NCBI GenBank assembly: GCA_017965765.1
Contig: JAGCPJ010000016.1
Coordinates: 1 to 56,210 of the forward strand
DNA length: 56,210 bases
Source: Bacteroidales bacterium
Lineage (GTDB): Bacteria > Bacteroidota > Bacteroidia > Bacteroidales > F082
Reading direction: 5' to 3'
Below are positions 23,023 to 35,541 of the stretch, in pieces (position 1 is the first letter of the stretch; every line of letters begins with the position of its first letter). Position numbers and translations under genes: made by a program. The notes under the pieces were generated by a model, which searched no databases, was not told where the DNA came from, and saw only the letters and a program-made list of their open reading frames with translations.

Positions 23023-23038
23023 GATTCAATGGTTTTTT

Positions 23039-23047
23039 GCAAAAATA
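23039..23047 (-). promoter_or_regulatory. -7 box for the small HTH gene
   Basis: Minus strand TATTTTTGC, 17 bp before the ATG at 23022. Confidence 0.5.
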
Positions 23048-23121
23048 CCCTTCAAGAGACGAACTATTTCCATCCAATTCATCCATTAGGTATTTTCTGT
23101 GCAACTATCATAATAAATGCT

Positions 23122-23129
23122 TATCTTTG
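23122..23129 (+). promoter_or_regulatory. -7 box for the HTH-kinase operon
   Basis: TATCTTTG, 18 bp before ATG 23148. It rules out the upstream in-frame start at 23037. Confidence 0.6.
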
Positions 23130-23147
23130 CAAGAAACAACCACAGCC

Positions 23148-23711
23148 ATGATCTCCCCCTCCATCATCGCCATGATCCGAAAGAAATCAGGGCTCGACTT
23201 CAACAACGCCAAGGACTTCGAGGTGTTATCAGCGTCGTTCCCTCCCAGCGACCGTTTGGGTGTCAACACCTTGAAGCGCCTGATGGGTTATGCCAAGTCG
23301 CCCATCGCACCCCGCAAGACCACCCTCGACGCGGTGGCGCATTACCTCGACGCACCTTCGTGGGAAGCCTTGACGGGCATCCAACCTGTGGAAAGCGACT
23401 GGGTGGAGAAGGCTTTTTTCGCCGATGAAATACGAGAAGGCTCCTTTGTGGAAGCCTCATGGTTCCCCGACCGCCACATCGTGTTGCAATGCATTGGTGA
23501 GAACCGTTTCCGTGTAACCCAAAGTCTCAACGGCAAGCTCCAGCCAAACGACGAGGTGGTCATCCAAAGTTTCCGCCTGCAATATCCCTTGCAGGTGCTG
23601 CAAGTCATGAGGAACGGCGAGATTGTGCGCGATGCCGCTGGCAACGAGTTGGGCTATGTGGCGGGACGGCAGAACGGATTGACAGAACTCTTCATCAAGG
23701 AGGCCTCATGA
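23148..23711 (+). CDS. HTH-type regulator in operon with a Ser/Thr kinase
   Basis: 187 residues. The first ~75 residues follow a Bacteroidota DNA-binding pattern: IRKKSGLDFNNAKDFEVLSA, VNTLKRLMGYA, TTLDAVAHYLDAPSWEALTG. The rest is a small beta-rich domain (FVEASWFPDRHIVLQCIGEN). The stop overlaps the kinase start by 4 bp, so the two products are probably made together; the protein may be a kinase substrate or set its expression. Inference only. Confidence 0.7.
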   Translation: MISPSIIAMIRKKSGLDFNNAKDFEVLSASFPPSDRLGVNTLKRLMGYAKSPIAPRKTTLDAVAHYLDAPSWEALTGIQPVESDWVEKAFFADEIREGSFVEASWFPDRHIVLQCIGENRFRVTQSLNGKLQPNDEVVIQSFRLQYPLQVLQVMRNGEIVRDAAGNELGYVAGRQNGLTELFIKEAS

Positions 23712-25354
23712 CGCAGGATTCAGACTTTATCGCCAACGACCGGCAAGGTCAGGAGGAAGTGCTATTCGACAGTGGCGGCACCTCCGATTGCTACCGTCTC
23801 ATCAAGGACAGCCGTATCTATTGCGTCAAGCGGCCCAAGCCACAGTTCCGCGACTCGGAGGCCTATATGAGCCTGTTCCACAAGGAATACGACCTGGGCG
23901 TCGCGCTGGAGCATCCCTACATCGTCCGCTATTACGAATACCAAGCTGACGATAGGGGCCCTTTCATCAAGATGGAATATGTCGATGGCGAAAACCTGGA
24001 TGAGTTTGTGGCCCAGCATCCTGACTATTTCAAGGACAAACACAATAAACAGCGTTTCCTCGATGAGCTTTTCTCTGCCTTGGCCTACCTCCACGACAAG
24101 AACATGCTGCATCTCGACCTCAAGCCTGGCAACATCCTCATCACCCACCAGGGACACCATGTCAAGCTCATTGATTTGGGTTTTGGTTGGAGTGAGAGCT
24201 ATTTGCACGACCTCGGCTTCACACGTGACTACTGCGCCCCAGAACAGTTGTCCGCCAAAATCGCCCAGATCGGTCCTGCCACCGATATTTATGCCGTGGG
24301 CAAGATCCTGCAGCATTATGGTTTGGCCAGCAATGTCGTGGTGCGACGCTGTTTGAAAGAAAACCCCAAGGAGCGTTTTCAAAGTGTCAAAGCTTTACGA
24401 AAGGCTTTGAGGCAGAGTGAAGCAAAGATAATCGCTTCAAGAATTGGGTTGGGCTTGGCTGTTGCGCTGTTGATAGGTGTTATTTTTTGGTTGTTGGCCA
24501 ACAGGGAAAAACCACTTCCTCCCCATCCCGACGCACCCGAAGGCGCTATTGCCGGGCTGTTTACCATAAATTGCGACGGCAACCAGGTGTATTTTTCAAA
24601 AGGCAACCTGCAATACCAAGCCTCCACCGACACATGGCGTTTTGCAGAGCACCAATGGGATTATATTGGAAGAGACAACCACAGGGCTTCGCCAACGTTT
24701 GAGGGATGGATAGACTTGTTCAGCTGGGGCACAAGCGGCCATGACCACGGTGCGGTGTGCTACCAACCCTGGAGCACGGGGGGCCAGTTTGACCATGCCG
24801 CCTATGGTCATGATGACTATAATCTGTACGATGGCGACGGTCAGGCCGACTGGGGCTACAATGCCATCAGCAACGGCGGCAACCAGGAAGGCCTGTGGCG
24901 AACTTTGAAATTGTCGGAATGGCGGTTTGTGTTGAAAAACCGGGAAACCACCTCCGGCATTTTGTTCGCAAAGGCTGTGGTCGACGGCATCAATGGCGTG
25001 GTGTTCCTTCCCGACGATTGGGATGCGTCTTATTATGTTTTGGACAGCACCAACAACGGGGACGTTTTCTATGATGCAAATGTCATCTCACCCGACGACT
25101 GGACCCGTGCGTTGGAAGCCAACGGTGCCGTCTTCCTGCCGGCTGCCGGCAACATCCAAAGTTGGTACGAGGACGCTTTTAATGAGCGTGGCGCTTATTG
25201 GTCGTCGTCCGCATCGGAAGGCTATGACACTCCCTGGCTGAAGAGCTTGTTTGATTTCAACGTGGATTACGTGGCTTCCGGGGGATCGTATTACCCACAC
25301 GAGCGGTATTCTGTACGGCTGATAAGGGAGGTTGAATCTCATCAACAGCGATGA
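23708..25354 (+). CDS. Membrane Ser/Thr protein kinase with C-terminal extracytoplasmic domain
   Basis: 548 residues. Eukaryotic-like kinase domain (about 15-235): Gly loop DSGGTSD, VAIK-type Lys41 (CVKRP), catalytic loop HLDLKPGN with Asp137, Lys139, Asn142, metal Asp156 in IDLG (DFG variant), and YCAPEQ. One membrane helix (about 246-264). The outer part starts GLFTINCDGNQVYFSKGNLQ and continues with WRFAEHQWDYIG, the layout of a common Bacteroidota extracellular domain (FISUMP-like/SUMF-like). It probably senses something outside and phosphorylates cytoplasmic targets. Residues needed for catalysis look intact. Confidence 0.82.
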   Translation: MTQDSDFIANDRQGQEEVLFDSGGTSDCYRLIKDSRIYCVKRPKPQFRDSEAYMSLFHKEYDLGVALEHPYIVRYYEYQADDRGPFIKMEYVDGENLDEFVAQHPDYFKDKHNKQRFLDELFSALAYLHDKNMLHLDLKPGNILITHQGHHVKLIDLGFGWSESYLHDLGFTRDYCAPEQLSAKIAQIGPATDIYAVGKILQHYGLASNVVVRRCLKENPKERFQSVKALRKALRQSEAKIIASRIGLGLAVALLIGVIFWLLANREKPLPPHPDAPEGAIAGLFTINCDGNQVYFSKGNLQYQASTDTWRFAEHQWDYIGRDNHRASPTFEGWIDLFSWGTSGHDHGAVCYQPWSTGGQFDHAAYGHDDYNLYDGDGQADWGYNAISNGGNQEGLWRTLKLSEWRFVLKNRETTSGILFAKAVVDGINGVVFLPDDWDASYYVLDSTNNGDVFYDANVISPDDWTRALEANGAVFLPAAGNIQSWYEDAFNERGAYWSSSASEGYDTPWLKSLFDFNVDYVASGGSYYPHERYSVRLIREVESHQQR

Positions 25355-25366
25355 CCTGTATGTTCG

Positions 25367-26326
25367 TTATCCCCCGTAGTCCTCACCATTAGTACCCTTC
25401 TTAAAAGCATCAGAGAATTCAGCGTATCGCTTTGAACCCGCAAGGCAAACAATTATTGCTATGCCTGACGGTATCACCAACCACAAACCTCCTTCTACGT
25501 CACTAAAAAATAAAATGAAACCGATGATTAGCAAAACCAGTGATATCAAGAAAACGGTCAATCTTCTTTTAGAGGCCTTTTGCTCTCGCTCTACAGCCTC
25601 TTGCTGCGCCTGTGCTTCTGCCTGTTCTTGAGCTATCCTCATTTGCTCTTTCTGCTTTTTCTCAGCCTCAACCCTTTGTTTTTCTTTCTTTATGGCTTTT
25701 TGCTTGTTTTCGCAGTAGTCGGCATAGCATGTTTCATCCACGAAATGGTGGTAAGCGCGTTTCATCACCCCTTGTATTCCCTCTATCTGAAGTTTTCCAT
25801 AGCCGTTTCTGGCATTGACGCTGCCACCGTTGACATTATATGCCCCGTCGGAGTCAAGATACAAATCAACATTTTTGGCTTCGGCAATGCGCTTGATGTC
25901 GTCGGGTTGAAGATCGAAATCCACCTTGCCAATGCCGCCAACATTAATTCTGTACGAATTAATACCTTTGATTTCTTCCTCCGAATAAGAGTTTTCTTCA
26001 TCGAATGTTTTATAATGCATTTTTCTAACCCAACCATGATTTGGTGAATCCACCTCCAATCTTTCCCCATCGATGTCAAATACGATTTTATTTTGGAACC
26101 AGGGTTCTGTTGCACAACATTTCGTAGAGATAGTAAAACCGATTTTTGCATCGTCGCTACGTGTTTTCCCTTCATAATGACGGGCGGGAAGGAGATCCAT
26201 TACCATATCCGACTTATCGCAACCAATGTCGGCATAGATAACGCCTCTTTTCAATTTTTCATAAGTGATGTTCTCCATTCCATCGTATGTTATTTCGATG
26301 GCATTGTTGTTGTTTTTCTTTTCCAT
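25367..26326 (-). CDS. Unknown protein with coiled coil and two C-terminal membrane helices
   Basis: 319 residues. Residues about 1-195 are mixed alpha/beta with no family I recognise. A charged, Gln/Glu/Lys-rich coiled coil (about 205-255, EKQRVEAEKKQKEQMRIAQE) is followed by two hydrophobic segments (VFLISLVLLIIGFILFF and LWLVIPSGIAIIVCLA). Last gene of the minus-strand run that begins with the radical SAM gene. Convergent with the kinase gene, 12 bp away. Confidence 0.65.
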   Translation of the reverse strand: MEKKNNNNAIEITYDGMENITYEKLKRGVIYADIGCDKSDMVMDLLPARHYEGKTRSDDAKIGFTISTKCCATEPWFQNKIVFDIDGERLEVDSPNHGWVRKMHYKTFDEENSYSEEEIKGINSYRINVGGIGKVDFDLQPDDIKRIAEAKNVDLYLDSDGAYNVNGGSVNARNGYGKLQIEGIQGVMKRAYHHFVDETCYADYCENKQKAIKKEKQRVEAEKKQKEQMRIAQEQAEAQAQQEAVEREQKASKRRLTVFLISLVLLIIGFILFFSDVEGGLWLVIPSGIAIIVCLAGSKRYAEFSDAFKKGTNGEDYGG

Positions 26327-26364
26327 TTTTTAATGATTTTATTTGGGTTTGCAATTTGTTTTGT

Positions 26365-26880
26365 TTATCGCTTTTTTAATAAGTAGCTTGGATTTTCCAT
26401 GAAATCTGCGAAAAAGTCGTCCAATGAGTTGTCGTAGTCGAATCCGCCAAACAACATTTCAAAGGTTGTTTCATCTTGTTTATTCCTACATGTCATCTTA
26501 AGTTTCCTGATTCGGATTTCTTGTTCCTTCCCGTCTTGACGGGCATGCACAAGCAACTCAAAAGAAACTGTGTCGCCGATGTTTCCGCCATAGCATTTGC
26601 CTCCGCCCATAAGGTAGTCGTCGTGCGATTGCGTCATGGTGTATTCGTTCCCGCTTGCGTCCTTTTGAAGGAACTCGTTCTTCTCTACCTCATATTTTGC
26701 ATTGACATCCAAACCATTTGTTTCAATCTGTTGCATGAAAAGGCGGTTCCTCTCTTTCCAATAATTGAAACGCTTCTTTTCAAAGATTCCCATCCTTTTC
26801 CCATTAATGGTCGGTGTACCTGTTGTTTCGGTAAAATCGCCATGATAATCCGATGTGATGTTTACTTGTTCTTCTTTCAT
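26365..26880 (-). CDS. Unknown cytoplasmic protein in the radical-SAM operon
   Basis: 171 residues starting MKEEQVNITSDYHGDF at 26880, preferred over an ATG 15 codons upstream that would overlap the previous gene. No signal peptide or membrane segment. The acidic C-terminus (FDYDNSLDDFFADFMENPS) could be a binding tail. Not recognised. Confidence 0.6.
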   Translation of the reverse strand: MKEEQVNITSDYHGDFTETTGTPTINGKRMGIFEKKRFNYWKERNRLFMQQIETNGLDVNAKYEVEKNEFLQKDASGNEYTMTQSHDDYLMGGGKCYGGNIGDTVSFELLVHARQDGKEQEIRIRKLKMTCRNKQDETTFEMLFGGFDYDNSLDDFFADFMENPSYLLKKR

Positions 26881-26896
26881 ATTGTTGTTTTTGAAG

Positions 26897-27190
26897 TTAT
26901 TCCAAATGATACGCAATCGTTCCAATTTTCAGTTGCCCTCTTCTGATATAACAGCCGTCAATGTTATAAAGGATTTCGCCATAGCTGGTTTGCCCTTTAC
27001 GGATATAGTTGCCGTCGATATTATAAACGATTTCGCCGTATGAGGTTTGGCCGCGACGGATCCATTTGCCATCGATATTATAGAGAATGGCGCCGTATGA
27101 GGGCTGTCCTTCCCTGATGAAACGCCCGTCAATGTTGAAAGCGATTCTTCCGTAGCTTGTTTGGCCTTCGCGTATGTATTTATAGCCCAT
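26897..27190 (-). CDS. Five-repeat beta protein (19-residue units)
   Basis: 97 residues from the Met at 27190, chosen because it avoids overlap with the gene ending at 27207. It is almost wholly five tandem units of about 19 residues with consensus YIRxGQTSYGEILYNIDG (57 bp each). The regular Gly/Tyr/Ile pattern suggests a closed beta structure such as the 5-fold beta-flower proteins I recall from Bacteroidota; that match is unverified. Confidence 0.65.
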   Translation of the reverse strand: MGYKYIREGQTSYGRIAFNIDGRFIREGQPSYGAILYNIDGKWIRRGQTSYGEIVYNIDGNYIRKGQTSYGEILYNIDGCYIRRGQLKIGTIAYHLE

Positions 27191-27206
27191 ATCAGTATTT
27201 GTGAAT

Positions 27207-28058
27207 TTATAACTTGAATTTTCTGAGGTCAAATCCATATTCAAGAAACAAATTGTCAAGTTGTTTGAAATCGACAGGTTCGTTGAGGCAACCGGCGATG
27301 TAGATGATGACTTGATAGGTTTGAATCACTTCTCTGTCGTATAGGTTGCACACATGCCGTTCATAGTCGGCTTGGGTGTAAGGATAGTTCGGCGTGCGGC
27401 ACAACTCAAAGTCGAGCAGTTCCAACGCCCAAGTGTAGTTCTGCTCATGGATGGCGTTATGTAGCACCTCATGGTCGTGCATGATGCGGAGGTTACGGAT
27501 GAGCACATTGGCGGCAATGAGATAATCCTTGTCAAAGCCTTTGTCGTTCATCTTCTCCCATTTGTTGACTTCAGCGGTGATTTGCTCCCGTGTCATGAAA
27601 GGTGCATCGCTGATGCGATAGGGGCACTCCACATTGTATTGCAGCAGAACGGGTTTCCTATCCACATTGGTTTTGGCAATATGGATGGAATAGTCCAGCT
27701 CCAACACGCATTCCATCTGGTTCGTCTTGATGCCCAAGGCTTGCACTTCCTGTCCGCAATGGAAATCACGCAAGGCATCTTCTTTGAGCAGCAAGCCCCA
27801 TACATCTGAAGGCATCTCTGGCGTATAGACAAAGTTGTATTGGGTGTAGCCCAAACCATTGCCTTTGCTCACCACATAGCGGCCTTCGCCAGTTCTACCC
27901 ACCACATAACTGCGGCCATGAATCGGACTGACTTGGTACATGGTTTTGTCGCCGTGCTCGGAACGGAGATAAGGATATAGATCCCTGTTTCCTTTCGTTG
28001 GAGATTTCTCTTCCAACACCAGACAATTTACATTTTTTGCGAACACCCTTAGCATCAT
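27207..28058 (-). CDS. Kinase-fold-like protein (possible SelO/YdiU relative) in the RiPP operon
   Basis: 283 residues, not confidently assigned. The pattern GRTGEGRYVVSKGNGLGYT, then LRDFHCGQEVQALGIKTN, resembles the Gly-rich segment and the EAMHALGIPTT helix of SelO pseudokinases, which AMPylate proteins. Further on, EVLHNAIHEQNYTW and ELLDFELCRTP could be the catalytic-loop Asn and the DFG-like Asp. The start overlaps the stop of the 46-residue gene by 4 bp. It may modify the peptide or act as a regulator; this is inference. Confidence 0.45.
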   Translation of the reverse strand: MMLRVFAKNVNCLVLEEKSPTKGNRDLYPYLRSEHGDKTMYQVSPIHGRSYVVGRTGEGRYVVSKGNGLGYTQYNFVYTPEMPSDVWGLLLKEDALRDFHCGQEVQALGIKTNQMECVLELDYSIHIAKTNVDRKPVLLQYNVECPYRISDAPFMTREQITAEVNKWEKMNDKGFDKDYLIAANVLIRNLRIMHDHEVLHNAIHEQNYTWALELLDFELCRTPNYPYTQADYERHVCNLYDREVIQTYQVIIYIAGCLNEPVDFKQLDNLFLEYGFDLRKFKL

Positions 28059-28195
28059 AAAACTCTTTTTCCAGGTTCAGGCTTCCTATCAGGCAACACA
28101 GGCTTTTGTGGTCTCTCAGGTAATGGTGCTTTCTTAGGCTCTGGAATAATCGGCTTATTCGGAGTTCTAGGTTCTTTGATTATTTCTTTTCCCAT
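28055..28195 (-). CDS. 46-residue Pro/Lys/Glu-rich small protein
   Basis: MGKEIIKEPRTPNKPIIPEP opens the protein, which continues with alternating Pro and charged residues to GKRVL. About a quarter of residues are Pro. No Cys. The stop overlaps the next gene's ATG (ATGA), indicating translational coupling. It could be a linker or adaptor peptide, or a second precursor; short length makes it uncertain, but the overlap and the clean start support a real gene. Confidence 0.55.
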   Translation of the reverse strand: MGKEIIKEPRTPNKPIIPEPKKAPLPERPQKPVLPDRKPEPGKRVL

Positions 28196-28237
28196 TTTTT
28201 TCTATTGTTTAATTCATTGAACTATAATTGATAAACC

Positions 28238-28271
28238 ATCAGAGGAGCACTAGTAGAAGTACTCCCCTGAT
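28238..28271 (-). terminator. Hairpin just after the candidate precursor gene
   Basis: 13-bp stem with two G-U pairs and an 8-nt loop, 12 nt after the precursor stop, with no T-run. Fits an attenuator or mRNA-stabilising hairpin that would raise precursor expression over downstream genes. The 88-nt gap it lies in has no gene. Confidence 0.6.
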
Positions 28272-28283
28272 AAAATGCTACAA

Positions 28284-28388
28284 TTAGACTTGTCTCCACA
28301 TAACGCCACAAACGCCTTCGCTGATCTGCGAGCAATGGCCAGGGGTCATGACATTGGAAGCCTTACTGATAACTAATTCTACTTTCAT
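28284..28388 (-). CDS. Candidate RiPP precursor peptide (34 residues)
   Basis: A short ORF 11 nt downstream of the radical SAM/SPASM gene. It opens MKVELVISKASNVMTPGHC and ends GVMWRQV, with two Cys (19 and 27), several Gly and one Trp (31) in the C-terminal half and a hydrophobic/charged N-terminal half, like a leader followed by a core. Directly followed by a hairpin. Sactipeptide-type thioether or cyclophane crosslinks would be possible chemistry for the enzyme; I do not recognise the precursor family. Its small size alone would not prove it, but the position does support it. Confidence 0.6.
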   Translation of the reverse strand: MKVELVISKASNVMTPGHCSQISEGVCGVMWRQV

Positions 28389-28399
28389 TGTCGTATGAT

Positions 28400-29965
28400 T
28401 TAGTTAGTTACAGGTGTACTGCGGGAGACACCATTTATCCCTTTTGTATCATAAATGCGTCGCAAGTCCACCTTTGTTTTTGATAAGGTTCGGAGCGCAG
28501 TTACAAAATCTTGACCATGCAACGGATCATATCCTTGCATCATCCGATGGGCCAAATTGCAGCGGATTTTGGCCATCGTGCAATTGTTTTCGGATGGTTT
28601 CTGAAAATCCCCATGTTCCACATAGTTATTGCCAGCACACAAATTACAATAAGCACAATAATCATGTTTGCCACAATCTTCATATTGTTGCAATGTGGCA
28701 GAACGCCATTTAATGAGCATAGGATTTTCTGTCAGAATCTCTTCTACGGATTGCTTTTTCAGGGTGCCAAATGGCATTGGGAAAGCACAACAAGGTTGAA
28801 GATTTCCGTCAGGCGTAATGCAAAATGTAGTACCACCTGCACCACAGCCATTCACATCCATAGGCTTGGACTGTCCAGCAAAATCTGGAGCTTCTGGCCC
28901 AACATAATATGGAATGTTGTCATCACGAAGCACCACTTGGAATTGTTCTTCATTTAGTCTCAATTGCCTAGAGCAACGATCGCCTTCAATAGAATCGTTG
29001 ATATTAATTTCAAACTGCGGAGCTGCACCGTATTTTTTCGCAATATCGGCTACCAAATAATAACTATGCAGGTTAGGTTGCATGATGCAACATTTCAAAT
29101 TCATCGGAACAGCCAAATCGGACAGTTGCTCCACCACCTTCATTGAGCGTTCCCAAGAGCCTTTCACACGAGTGATGGCATCGTGATCCTCAGCCACACC
29201 GCTATAGATGCTCACGCCCACCAAGCGCGGGAAATAGTTGGCCAATCGCTCCACTTTATCCACAATACGTTGCCCATTGGTGAAGACATCAAAGGCGATT
29301 TCTTTTTGGTAGAGATAGTTGATGATGTCCCAAACAATGGGCTTTGAGAATGGATCGCCTCCAGAAAGGCAGACTTTCACCAAACCATGCTCATACAAGT
29401 TATCAATGATGCGTTTATAGTCATCGAGGTTCAGTTCCTCGCGATCTCCACGATGTGAAACTTCCTTATCGTTGCGAGTAGCTCCAGGATTGTAGCAATG
29501 AATGCACTGTTCGCTACAATTATAGGTCAGCTCAAACATGACCGAAGTCACCGTTTTGCCATCATCCACGGTGTTGTAGTAGTCCTGCTCTGCCGAGGAA
29601 GTGTCGAAAGGAAGTTTCTCCTTGGTGGTTCTCTCCGTGGTCATTGAGGCATTGCGTTTGGCTTGGGCCAATTGAGAGCGCATCCGTTTGATGTCTTCAT
29701 CGGTGGGAACAAAGTCCGTCAGTAGGCCTGCATTAATTAAGGTGTCGAAAAATGCCAAGATGGATTCCTCGGCGATGCCAGTTGCAGAGACAATCTTTTC
29801 CACTTCGACTTGGCCGTTTCGCGGTACAGCAAGCACCTGCCCGATGACATCTGCTGAATACGACTCGAAGAAATAGCTGTAGCCAGCCAAGAGGTTGTAC
29901 ATCAGGGCTACATGTTTTTTGGCGTTGTAGCGGCCGCAGGTCCAGATGGGTCTATGAATTGTCAT
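28400..29965 (-). CDS. Radical SAM/SPASM peptide maturase
   Basis: 521 residues. The N-terminal ~100 residues look like a winged-helix / PqqD-like peptide-recognition segment (YSADVIGQVLAVPR...AEESILAFFDTLINAGLL). Radical SAM cluster Cys150, Cys154, Cys157 in NCSEQCIHCYNPG, then SGGDPF. The C-terminal SPASM region is Cys-rich: CGAGGTTFCITPDGNLQPCC, then CGKHDYCAYCNLCAGN and NCTMA. Such enzymes modify ribosomal peptides (thioether, C-C or other crosslinks). First intact gene of a same-strand run down to 25367. Confidence 0.85.
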   Translation of the reverse strand: MTIHRPIWTCGRYNAKKHVALMYNLLAGYSYFFESYSADVIGQVLAVPRNGQVEVEKIVSATGIAEESILAFFDTLINAGLLTDFVPTDEDIKRMRSQLAQAKRNASMTTERTTKEKLPFDTSSAEQDYYNTVDDGKTVTSVMFELTYNCSEQCIHCYNPGATRNDKEVSHRGDREELNLDDYKRIIDNLYEHGLVKVCLSGGDPFSKPIVWDIINYLYQKEIAFDVFTNGQRIVDKVERLANYFPRLVGVSIYSGVAEDHDAITRVKGSWERSMKVVEQLSDLAVPMNLKCCIMQPNLHSYYLVADIAKKYGAAPQFEININDSIEGDRCSRQLRLNEEQFQVVLRDDNIPYYVGPEAPDFAGQSKPMDVNGCGAGGTTFCITPDGNLQPCCAFPMPFGTLKKQSVEEILTENPMLIKWRSATLQQYEDCGKHDYCAYCNLCAGNNYVEHGDFQKPSENNCTMAKIRCNLAHRMMQGYDPLHGQDFVTALRTLSKTKVDLRRIYDTKGINGVSRSTPVTN

Positions 29966-30010
29966 GGCCGGTTGTTTCTTACCTTCCTAATCCTTAATAA
30001 TGTTCATTTC

Positions 30011-30268
30011 CTACTTGTTGATTTCTTTCGCAGCAGCTTCATCAAAAGCGTCCTGAAAGGCCCTTCCTTTTCCTTGATTTTCATAATATTGCTTGTGAGT
30101 AACAAAGTTTTCCCAAGCTTTCTCCTCGGCTTTTTTATCGCCCTTATCCAAGGCTTTTACAATAGCCTTTGCATCTTATTTTGCCTGTGCCTCTGGTGAA
30201 GTTGAACACGAAACATTAACCATGCTCAAACCAAGCAGGAGTATTACTGCATACATTAACTTTTTCAT
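30011..30268 (-). pseudogene. Small lipoprotein gene with an in-frame TAA
   Basis: ATG 30268 starts MKKLMYAVILLLGLSMVNVS with the lipobox Cys at 21. Codon 31 is TAA (30176-30178), after which the same frame stays open for 54 codons with a coherent charged sequence (DAKAIVKALDKGDKKAEEKA) to a TAG at 30011. Most likely a nonsense mutation in an 85-residue lipoprotein, or a sequencing error. Recoding is unlikely but not excluded. It lies 45 bp upstream of the radical SAM gene. Confidence 0.7.
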
Positions 30269-30429
30269 TGTAATCGTCATTATATTAATAGTCCGTTAAA
30301 TTTTTGATTATTACGCGGTTTTTACGCCATAAAACAATAGTTCTTTGACATTTGGTTGAATCAAGTTCATGTTCGGGGTGTTCCCGAACGTTGATAATAA
30401 TCGTTGGATCATTACTGTGGTTTGTCGGA

Positions 30430-30671: not shown

Positions 30672-31079
30672 ATGAGAGACCCGATGATTGAAATCGTAAG
30701 AGACCCAGTCAGTGAAGCCCGGCGTTACGTGGAAAACGCCCGTGAGACACTCAAAAACAACGCAAAACTTGACCCAGAAACCAATTCATATACAGACCGC
30801 AAATACGTTAAGGCCGCAGGTCATTATTTATGGAATGGCGTCTTGATTATCCTCAACACCGTTTTTCATGTAAATGAGAAAAAGGGACGTGTCAATATAG
30901 ACGACTACCGTATGGCAGTCGGGCCACGTGACCGCAAACTGCTCGCCTCAGTGAACAACGCCTACGATATTCTCCACCTCCACATGGGTTATGACGGGGT
31001 CCTCGACAAAACAGTATGCAACGAAGGCATCCGCCTCGCCAACGAGATCATTGACCGCTGCGCGGTGATGTTACCGTAA
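30672..31079 (+). CDS. DUF5618 family protein (copy 1)
   Basis: 135 residues, all-helical by composition. Opens MRDPMIEIVRDPVSEARRYV. Shares with copies at 35119 and 45878 the segments ARRYVENA, DRKYV..AG..LWNGVL, RDRKLL, MGYDG and ANEIIDRCA.ML. Function unknown to me. Followed 58 bp later by an Rpn-type nuclease gene, with a copy of its own leader in the gap. Confidence 0.8.
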   Translation: MRDPMIEIVRDPVSEARRYVENARETLKNNAKLDPETNSYTDRKYVKAAGHYLWNGVLIILNTVFHVNEKKGRVNIDDYRMAVGPRDRKLLASVNNAYDILHLHMGYDGVLDKTVCNEGIRLANEIIDRCAVMLP

Positions 31080-34110: not shown

Positions 34111-35124
34111 ATGGAAAAAGAAATGCTTTTAGGAAAGACCCCTGAGGAGATCCAGGAGGTCGTGGACAAACTCGGTTTGCCGAAGTTCACCGGGAAACAG
34201 CTGGTGGATTGGATTTACAACAAACGCGTTGCCGCTTTCGACGACATGACCAACCTCAGCAAGAAGTCGCGTGAGCTGTTGGCCGAGCAATACGAGGTGG
34301 GGCTTTATGCGCCTTTGAAGGAGCAGACCTCCAGTGACGGCACCAAGAAATACCTCTTCCCTGCCGGCGACCTTCGCATTGAGACCGCCTATATCCCTGA
34401 CCGTGACCGCGCCACGCTCTGCATCTCGACGCAGGTGGGTTGCCAGATGGACTGTCTGTTCTGCGCCACGGGAAAGCAAGGCTTTGAGAAGAACCTGACC
34501 GCTGCCCAGATCGTGAACCAGGTGCTCAGCCTGCCGGAGTTCGACACCTTGACCAACATCGTGTTCATGGGCATGGGTGAGCCGCTCAACAACTACGACG
34601 CTTTGATGCGGTCGCTCGACATCCTGACGCAGGAGTGGGCGTTAGGCTGGAGCCCGACCCGCATCACCGTCTCCACCTGCGGCGTCATCCCCAACCTGAA
34701 GCGGTTCCTCACCGAGTCGAAGTGCAACCTCGCCATCAGCATGCACAGTCCTTTCCATGACGAGCGTCTCAAGATGATGCCCATCGAGAAGAACTACCCC
34801 ATCCGGGAGGTGATTCATCTGGTGAAGCAGCACGACTGGCATGGTCAGCGCAGGCTGTCCTTTGAGTACATCGTGTTCAAGGATCTGAACGACACCAAGG
34901 ATCACATCAAAGAGATCTGCCGGTTGTTGGGCAGTTTACGTTGCCGGGTGAACCTCATCCGTTACCATGCCGTTCCGGGCATCCCGCTGAAGAGTCCCAG
35001 CAACGACACCATGACCTGGTTCCGCGATGCTTTGAACGACAAGGGCATCATCGCCACGATACGCGCCTCAAGGGGTCAGGACATCGATGCCGCGTGCGGG
35101 TTGCTATCGACAAAACAATCATGA
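34111..35124 (+). CDS. rlmN: 23S rRNA (adenine-C2)-methyltransferase
   Basis: 337 residues, normal length. Radical SAM Cys111, Cys115, Cys118 in CQMDCLFCATGKQGFEKNLT, GMGEPLNNYD, and the C-terminal catalytic Cys in SRGQDIDAACGLL. Methylates A2503 of 23S rRNA (and A37 of some tRNAs). The stop shares TCATGA with the stop of the convergent DUF5618 gene. The start could be Met1 (34111) or Met5 (34123). Confidence 0.96.
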   Translation: MEKEMLLGKTPEEIQEVVDKLGLPKFTGKQLVDWIYNKRVAAFDDMTNLSKKSRELLAEQYEVGLYAPLKEQTSSDGTKKYLFPAGDLRIETAYIPDRDRATLCISTQVGCQMDCLFCATGKQGFEKNLTAAQIVNQVLSLPEFDTLTNIVFMGMGEPLNNYDALMRSLDILTQEWALGWSPTRITVSTCGVIPNLKRFLTESKCNLAISMHSPFHDERLKMMPIEKNYPIREVIHLVKQHDWHGQRRLSFEYIVFKDLNDTKDHIKEICRLLGSLRCRVNLIRYHAVPGIPLKSPSNDTMTWFRDALNDKGIIATIRASRGQDIDAACGLLSTKQS

Positions 35125-35541
35125 CGGCAACATCGCAGCGCAACGGTCGATGATGTCGTTGGCAATGATGATACCATCCTGACACGTCGCCTTTCTTTGA
35201 TTACCATCATAACCCATAAATAAATGTATTGTTTCGTAACCGCTCGTGACAAGTGCAAGCAATTTCCGGTCACGGGCGCCAACAGCATTTTTGTAGTCTT
35301 CGATACTCGGCCGACTCCTTTTGTTCTCTTTCACCTGGAACACTGCGTCAAGGATAAGCAACACGCCGTTCCAAAGCGTGTTGCCAGCCATGCGGACGTA
35401 TTTGCGGTCTTTGTATATCTGAAGTTCCATGTCAAATTTTCCCTTTTCATTCAGAATAGTCCGAGCATTCTCCACATAGCGGCGCGCCTCTTTTACAGGA
35501 TCTTTAATTACTTCCTTGTCTTTGTGTTTAAAAAAAATCAT
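35119..35541 (-). CDS. DUF5618 family protein (copy 2)
   Basis: 140 residues. Paralog of 30672 and 45878 with a short basic N-terminal extension (MIFFKHKDKEV). Same conserved blocks: ARRYVENA, DRKYVRMAGNTLWNGVLLIL, RDRKLL, MGYDG, DIIDRCAAML. Ends on the stop of rlmN, sharing TCATGA. Own promoter box at 35585. Confidence 0.8.
   Translation of the reverse strand: MIFFKHKDKEVIKDPVKEARRYVENARTILNEKGKFDMELQIYKDRKYVRMAGNTLWNGVLLILDAVFQVKENKRSRPSIEDYKNAVGARDRKLLALVTSGYETIHLFMGYDGNQRKATCQDGIIIANDIIDRCAAMLPS

Follow-up and report, generated by a model that had tools for sequence, protein, structure and literature searches.

Radical S-adenosylmethionine (radical SAM) enzymes with a SPASM domain that mature sactipeptides and ranthipeptides, such as SkfB, AlbA, StsB and CteB, are encoded next to short Cys-containing precursor peptides. 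An operon with the same arrangement was examined in the window, i.e., the whole 56,210-nucleotide (nt) stretch of contig JAGCPJ010000016.1 from a Bacteroidales bacterium of family F082. It differs from those systems in that it also contains an RNA pseudoknot and a gene for a kinase-like partner protein, and its enzyme scores far below the curated cut-offs. With a probability of about 0.7, the locus is an operon of the ribosomally synthesized and post-translationally modified peptide (RiPP) type, in which the radical SAM/SPASM enzyme would be the maturase that modifies the adjacent short peptide.

Small H-type pseudoknot RNAs include preQ1-I and SAM-II. Like these RNAs as generally described, the element found here is a compact pseudoknot ahead of a gene, whereas it has no Rfam match and is placed between two genes, where it either overlaps the end of the upstream open reading frame (ORF) or comes shortly after it. 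The SelO/YdiU pseudokinase AMPylases share with the kinase-like protein a degenerate catalytic loop, a retained Asn and metal Asp, and colinear motifs (the SelO side of this comparison is partly general knowledge), but the similarity is not significant. Inactive kinase homologues also occur within RiPP pathways: according to the available parts of PMC9415263, they include TvaE, of the thioviridamide type, and KinH, of the kintamdin pathway, and they bind leaders or partner enzymes, TvaE being said to bind the leader with its partner enzyme. These, too, are described there as kinase-like proteins without catalytic residues encoded in RiPP clusters; the partner in those clusters is a LanD-like flavoprotein, whereas here it is a radical SAM enzyme, and the likeness is one of description. 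A nitrile-forming pseudokinase, CalN, is cited in the discussion and references of one paper on pseudokinases, radical SAM and RiPPs, in the portion of it available. For Bacteroidales, the available passages of PMC10352776 describe RiPP clusters with GG-motif leaders and peptidase-containing transporters and call characterised class I bacteriocins elusive in this order; those clusters likewise combine radical SAM enzymes with precursors, whereas an operon of the present type is not mentioned in those passages.

Searches of a library covering part of the literature returned nothing that joins SelO, radical SAM and RiPP, and for pseudoknots with RiPPs or other peptide terms no such element appeared in titles or abstract openings. 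Among the matches listed, none of those on SelO, pseudokinases, AMPylation and biosynthetic gene clusters was about RiPPs by its title, and the system was not recognisable in the titles or opening abstracts returned for SPASM and Bacteroides, for kinase-like proteins and Bacteroidetes, or for rumen and RiPP.

Organization of the operon and its relatives

The operon is read from the minus strand in the order radical SAM/SPASM enzyme, 34-codon ORF, hairpin, 46-amino-acid (aa) ORF, 283-aa protein, and three further genes down to position 25367. The gap between the enzyme and the 34-codon ORF is 11 nt, and the 46-aa Pro/Lys-rich ORF overlaps the 283-aa ORF by ATGA; the ORFs, gap, overlap and the minus-strand genes that follow are as an earlier note on this DNA had described them. 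That note had proposed a RiPP system, of which the maturase with its adjacent precursor, the division into leader and core, the hairpin and the kinase-like features stood, and an NVMTPGHC segment, the Pro-rich protein and the downstream genes as fixed parts did not. The pseudoknot had gone unnoticed. The main features are as follows.

28400-29965, minus strand: radical SAM/SPASM enzyme, presumed peptide maturase, 521 aa (Pfam domains, invariant cysteines, solved matches)
28413-28441, minus strand: H-type RNA pseudoknot, overlapping the end of the enzyme ORF (covariation in relatives)
28284-28388, minus strand: putative precursor peptide, 34 aa, with a leader at approximately residues 1-13 and a core with Cys19 and the invariant Cys27 (alignment, synonymous and nonsynonymous changes, pS/pN)
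28236-28273, minus strand: hairpin 3' of the peptide stop, terminator-like or mRNA-stabilising (RNAfold)
28055-28195, minus strand: Pro/Lys-rich 46-aa ORF, in a variable slot between the peptide and the kinase-like gene (tblastn)
27207-28058, minus strand: degenerate kinase-like protein, 283 aa (P0004), presumed accessory partner or tailoring protein (profile comparison)

A single pattern-based scan, run over the genome collection with the enzyme as query, gave 27 distinct related loci, and the hosts of the operon were uncultured gut and rumen bacteria. Whole-genome searches supplied the held-out loci L010, L011, L012, L044, L045 and L047, which lie outside the peptide alignment; L046 was a repeat of L039. 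The genome sets comprised family genomes (173 or 149), 393 order genomes and a phylum sample of 395, with two genomes common to the family and order sets used for the enzyme and the kinase-like gene.

The enzyme and the adjacent peptide

In enzyme alignment A2 (the window and 24 of the 27 loci, with L013, L024 and L025 excluded), PF04055 (Radical_SAM) and PF13186 (SPASM) were each present in 25/25 members, and identity to the window enzyme ranged from 34 to 90% across the 24 aligned loci. The three cysteines of the radical SAM motif CxxxCxxC (C150, C154 and C157) and seven SPASM cysteines (C374, C392, C431, C437, C440, C443 and C462) were invariant in the 25 sequences. No NCBIfam model came near its cut-off among the matches listed (25 of 61), and the same held for the 25 family members, so that the enzyme is considered to be without a curated model; the sactipeptide-maturase models were missed widely (AlbA, 87 of 850 bits; StsB, 56 of 625; SkfB, 43 of 300). 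The eight matches among solved structures were led by SkfB, PqqE and 5wgg, which we take to be enzymes acting on peptides. The available passages of PMC10352776 identify 5wgg as CteB. Winged-helix-type Pfam models matched a few of the 25 members weakly (best, 0.0019), with the position in the protein not shown, and the N-terminal region of the enzyme is presumed to be a leader-binding RiPP recognition element (RRE).

A short ORF of 33 to 41 codons was found close behind the enzyme gene in 26 of the 27 loci; in the remaining one, L024, the contig end cuts the ORF and its first codons are visible. A like ORF was also present in all six held-out loci. In the peptide alignment (26 loci and the window, 27 sequences), the N-terminus has the leader consensus MKvEL.IS..S.V, and the core frequently ends in CGI.YR. 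The two-Cys core that had been described from the window stands for Cys27, which is present in 27/27 peptides, and only in part for Cys19 (24/27); Trp31, likewise given as a feature, occurs in only 2/27 and is often replaced by Tyr, and the NVMTPGHC segment, which had been expected to be conserved, was found in just 3/27. A motif scan that recovered 19 of the 27 known precursors gave zero second copies, indicating a single precursor per locus.

Over the whole peptide, pS exceeded pN in 16 of 16 pairs that we chose, e.g., with 5 synonymous changes and 1 nonsynonymous change between the window and L013 and with 10 and 3, respectively, between L018 and L019; L033 and L038, with one change of each kind, differ too little for judgement. 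By this measure, the peptide is under purifying selection. Homologous loci lacking the short ORF and neutrally evolving codons, which the earlier note had named as evidence that would speak against it, were both looked for, and neither was found. In 11 of the 16 pairs, core pN was higher than leader pN, in agreement with the leader/core organisation proposed for the 34-residue peptide; between the window and L017, whose enzymes are 90% identical, leader pN was 0.07 and core pN 0.51. Within the clade of the window, peptide type does not follow the nearest kin of the enzyme, since the peptides of the window and L013 are nearly alike and L017 and L031 have another in common.

Furthermore, the two halves of the enzyme were compared with the two parts of the peptide in 25 sequences. 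With residues 331-505 corrected for, enzyme residues 1-330 tracked the leader, taken as alignment columns 1-18 (partial correlation, 0.40; p 0.0005), and this correlation was 0.51 without L018 and L019. Residues 331-505 tracked the core (0.57; p 0.0005). Relative to the window enzyme, those of L018 and L019 are 91% and 88% identical over residues 1-330 and 45% and 44% identical over residues 331-505, and their peptide core differs and is without Cys19; these two look like natural chimeric maturases joined at about residue 330. Sequence comparison shows that the enzyme and the short peptide are co-inherited, with the leader being tracked by the enzyme's N-terminal two thirds.

RNA structures on both sides of the peptide gene

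The intergenic DNA contains two interleaved pairings, which in the window are GGGA/TCCC (stem a, 28441-28438 with 28426-28423) and GGTGT/ACACC (stem b, 28432-28428 with 28417-28413); other complementary sequences take their place elsewhere. The resulting pseudoknot overlaps or shortly follows the stop codon of the enzyme. The window and 26 of the 27 loci contain it, with covariation; the loci of alignment A4 match the model by construction. A4 contained 27 sequences (26 distinct), L039 having been excluded before counting because it is without such a pseudoknot. In A4, 93.1% of cells were paired, compared with 77.5% in shuffles, and 8 of 9 base pairs had changes on both sides, compared with 3.6 in shuffles; the covariation score was 0.414, versus 0.151 for shuffles and at most 0.159 for slid structures. 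A single-sequence search ranked the same pseudoknot best in 25 of 28 sequences. Covariation thus supports the RNA structure.

A covariance model built with stem a only was used for genome searches. It found 9 of 149 family genomes at E<=4.8e-6, all with the match directly behind the enzyme; of three weaker matches (E 0.13-0.45), the one in G137 is a true site, and the other two, in genomes in which no enzyme was found, are probably due to chance. Among the 12 enzyme genomes, G070 and G141 had no listed model match at the pseudoknot site. The held-out loci L044, L045, L010, L011 and L012 matched the model, the last three weakly (E 0.02-0.1), and L047, which the model did not list, has by eye an equivalent knot of different sequence. 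Rfam gave nothing at the pseudoknot, either in window positions 28100-28700, where the single match was at chance level on the opposite strand (E 9.8), or in eight loci, where the sole match was a tmRNA elsewhere in L028.

In the window, L014, L017 and L031, the enzyme ORF traverses the knot and ends near the peptide start (window 28400-28448, minus strand), and in many relatives it stops at or before the knot; the difference arises from a one-base difference in length before the pseudoknot. A frameshift signal, suggested by this 1-nt difference within the window clade, was dropped on inspection of the sequence because the slippery site would abut the stem.

The hairpin behind the peptide was assessed with RNAfold on the 75 nt from the peptide stop in 27 sequences (the window and 26 loci). 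In the window it occupies 28236-28273 with a main stem of 16 bp, where 13 bp had been counted before, and z = -5.1. Of the 27 sequences, 20 gave a z value below -2, the sequence of the stem varying among them; L023, L033, L034 and L038 lay between -1.6 and -2.0, and L018, L019 and L027 had no convincing hairpin at this place. The claim of a hairpin after the short ORF is therefore borne out as a position conserved in most loci. A long T run followed it in few loci, by eye, so that it may act either in termination or in mRNA stabilisation.

The kinase-like protein

Besides the window, 13 of the 27 loci encode a homologue of the 283-aa protein downstream of the peptide, i.e., 14 of 26 assessable cases, L024 and L039 ending too early for assessment. 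Among 173 family genomes, 5 had the kinase-like gene and 12 had the enzyme (E<=1e-60), and all 5 genes adjoined the enzyme; among the 393 order genomes, the corresponding numbers were 5 and 7 (E<=1e-70), all 5 within about 1 kb of the enzyme. By our own arithmetic, which ignores kinship, the chance of 5/5 falling within 7/393 is about 3e-10. In the phylum sample, the gene was found only in the genome of the window, and none was found away from the enzyme in the genome sets scanned. The two proteins co-diverge (rho 0.83 over 78 pairs from 13 loci, kinship not corrected). On the enzyme tree, the presence of the kinase-like gene requires 6 changes, compared with a shuffled mean of 8.7 (29 of 500 shuffles were as low, and several branches are long), and the protein is therefore regarded as accessory.

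No Pfam model matched the 283-aa protein at E<=1. Against solved sequences, a profile of its family found protein kinases only among the matches listed (45, with E up to 10), all of them weak (best, 0.71) and one named a rhodanese-family protein by its depositors. With hhalign, canonical Ser/Thr kinases scored 41.0, whereas 40 column permutations reached at most 27.6 and unrelated families of the loci 16-17.5; the similarity lies mostly in the C-lobe, in the catalytic-loop and DFG region. In 17/17 members, Ala replaces the HRD Asp, and Lys65, Asn207 and Asp216 are retained. The kinase-like features proposed for this protein are supported, on weak profile evidence. Its probable role is that of a partner that binds the peptide or of a tailoring enzyme whose chemistry is not that of a kinase.

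Proposed mechanism and alternative explanations

In the mechanism that we infer, the N-terminal domain of the enzyme would bind the leader (MKvEL.IS..S.V), and the SPASM enzyme would then use radical chemistry to form a linkage within the core. This linkage would most likely be a thioether from Cys27 (and from Cys19 where present) and would give a short macrocyclic or cross-linked peptide. The pseudoknot upstream and, at most loci, the hairpin downstream may protect or separately control the mRNA of the short peptide, and RNA structures bracketing it in this way could cause the substrate to be made in excess over the enzyme. Where present, the kinase-like protein, which keeps the Lys, Asn and Asp of the nucleotide site without the HRD Asp, would contribute as binding partner or tailoring enzyme, in the manner of the inactive kinase homologues of thioamitide and kintamdin pathways. 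The resulting peptide probably acts in signalling or antagonism. A bolder version is a long shot: a RiPP class in which the radical SAM enzyme and a catalytically repurposed pseudokinase, which would not phosphorylate but add a nucleotide or activate a carboxyl or amide group, both act on one 34-residue peptide, with a pseudoknot that senses enzyme, peptide or ligand and sets the substrate:enzyme ratio.

Several observations weigh against the RiPP reading or weaken the case for the pseudoknot. The case is made from sequence, and the chemistry on the peptide is predicted. The top NCBIfam scores belonged to haem b and haem d1 enzymes, far under the cut-off, and the solved matches other than the best three were not peptide enzymes, including MoaA, a viperin-like enzyme and cytosylglucuronate decarboxylase. 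In 5 of the 16 peptide pairs, all of them close (L017/L031, L018/L019 and three among L028-L030), the leader changed more than the core. The coupling of the SPASM half to the core is due to one recombinant lineage; without L018 and L019 it was 0.12 (p 0.16), and residues 1-330 then correlated with the core (0.25, p 0.03). For the pseudoknot, a slide of +1 also gave 8 pairs with both-side changes and 17 further pair types, versus 16 in the true register, although only 54.9% of its cells were paired, its covariation was 0.143 and its both-side-change cells numbered 15 versus 30. In addition, 1 of 500 shuffles attained the observed number of pair types; the A4 rows L018, L019, L035, L036 and L037 are partly misregistered and hold 11 of the 16 unpaired cells; and in only 13 of the 25 sequences that ranked the pseudoknot best did at most 5 of 100 shuffles score equally high, so that the single-sequence evidence is modest. 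The kinase-like gene is absent from 12 of the 26 assessable loci, and its kinase match is poor in the N-lobe. No recurrent exporter or leader protease was recognised among the recurring flank ORF clusters, a family-based search not having been made.

The absence of a recognised exporter or protease would suit a modified peptide that stays in the cell and serves there as a small carrier or redox cofactor, comparable to mycofactocin or PQQ, whose NCBIfam maturase models match the enzyme, far under the cut-off; this is doubtful, in that the core is variable, the peptide type departs from the enzyme's nearest kin, unlike a cofactor, and no partner oxidoreductase was recognised among the recurring clusters. 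A role of the short ORF as a regulatory leader peptide or as a translated spacer between RNA elements, with the enzyme acting on another substrate, is very unlikely. A tiny ORF flanked by two conserved RNA structures does resemble attenuator ORFs, but conservation at the amino acid level with an invariant Cys, the excess of pS over pN in every chosen pair, the coupling of the leader to the N-part of the enzyme, and the position behind the enzyme at every readable locus speak for a substrate.

Other alternatives concern the partners of the enzyme and peptide. The kinase-like gene, small ORFs and RNA elements could be unrelated neighbours in a variable island, the system consisting of enzyme and peptide only: the downstream content varies strongly, and the site beside a recurring kinase pair (see below) carries other cargo in relatives. 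This is improbable in view of the covarying pseudoknot and of a kinase-like gene that is not seen apart from the enzyme and diverges with it. The 283-aa protein was at first taken, from its motifs, for a SelO-type AMPylase, which might adenylylate the peptide or the enzyme. The motifs KGxGxxY, RD/EF, LGIxT, Asn and Asp are indeed colinear, but membership in this family was rejected, as PF02696 matched 0/14 members at E<=1, the hhalign score of 21.7 lay inside the permuted range (maximum, 26.9 in 60 permutations), the kinase profile scored higher (41.0 and 39.6), and SelO was found in 0/60 genomes of the order. Since the score rose to 27.9, a value without permutation control, on the addition of three distant members, SelO is kept as a weak rival, though an unlikely one.

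On the RiPP reading, the locus adds, from gut and rumen Bacteroidales, a radical SAM/SPASM maturase family without a curated model and with a minimal precursor, and it has the appearance of a new family of natural products whose control element is unusual. The pseudoknot would be an RNA element, unlisted in the searches made, that is dedicated to one presumed biosynthetic operon, and it makes the setting of the enzyme-to-substrate ratio in RiPP producers directly testable. The apparent chimeras L018 and L019, which differ jointly in SPASM half and core, could serve directly to test which domain recognises which portion of the substrate. As for the kinase-like partner, it would represent a degenerate kinase that works alongside a radical SAM maturase.

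Downstream cargo and flanking genes

The cargo downstream of the operon differed strongly between loci. In the window, it consists of the following genes.

26897-27190, minus strand (ORF, 26897-27259): Bflower_3 repeat protein (P0005), variable downstream cargo (PF21786, E 4.1e-24)
26365-26880, minus strand: 171-aa protein (P0006) without Pfam match at E<=1, variable downstream cargo (Pfam, tblastn)
25367-26326, minus strand: 319-aa protein (P0007) with a hydrophobic segment, variable downstream cargo (no family above cut-off)

Searches with tblastn over 30 loci found homologues of the Pro-rich 46-aa ORF in three (L013, L031 and L032), of P0005 in one, of P0006 in one, plus the stretch L065, which stops before any enzyme, and of P0007 in four (L013, L017, L018 and L031). 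With 3, 1, 1 and 4 occurrences, these genes are not the fixed parts for which they had been taken. Pro-rich ORFs were also seen by eye in L016 and L034, and other small ORFs occupy the slot between the peptide and the kinase-like gene in other loci. In two loci without the kinase-like gene, genes downstream of the peptide (L022:7874-8818 and L025:8090-9073) resemble what we take to be M42-type aminopeptidases.

A Ser/Thr kinase gene (548 aa) and a 224-aa gene, at 23037-25354 on the plus strand of the window, form a recurring pair in the genus. A homologue of the 224-aa gene (at least 60% identity) was present in 19 of 149 family genomes, including the window's own; 9 of these were among the 12 enzyme genomes, and 10 were without the enzyme (G050, G058, G061, G063, G095, G106, G107, G113, G114 and G115). 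Among the other enzyme genomes, G137 and G141 lack the 224-aa gene and G070 was not listed. Near the enzyme, L028, L030 and L037 carry more distant homologues of both pair genes (tblastn), and in G089 the kinase pair and the enzyme are on separate contigs. The pair as a dedicated part of the operon was not upheld, as it occurs in 10 genomes without the enzyme; its strong enrichment beside the enzyme is read as a shared insertion site, though there may also be a functional link. In stretches from genomes without a known enzyme, different cargo followed the pair in 5 of 6 (L066-L070), L065 ending early. On inspection by eye, 4 of these 5 stretches carry lipoprotein-like ORFs in this cargo, with arrays of lipoprotein-like genes in L067 and L070.

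Other origins of the operon were also considered. A phage or plasmid origin was rejected, the P0004 family not being found in viral contigs, phages or plasmids and the enzyme having one distant match (23% identity) in viral sequences. A defence system was rejected as well, the PADLOC matches being generic (viperin-type radical SAM and kinase models).

Upstream of the enzyme, a short lipoprotein-like ORF (window 30011-30280, minus strand) has an early stop followed by a further open stretch in frame; by eye, it appears to be the decayed remnant of a gene related to the lipoprotein-like ones found beside the kinase pair elsewhere. Two DUF5618-like genes lie farther out, one at 30672-31079 (plus strand), which matches PF18498, and one at 35119-35541 (minus strand), which matches L067 at the position also matched by the first. 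Near the operon in two other loci, L027:4372-5346 and L029:9449-10216 are presumably ADP-ribosylglycohydrolase-like and NADAR-type-like genes, respectively.

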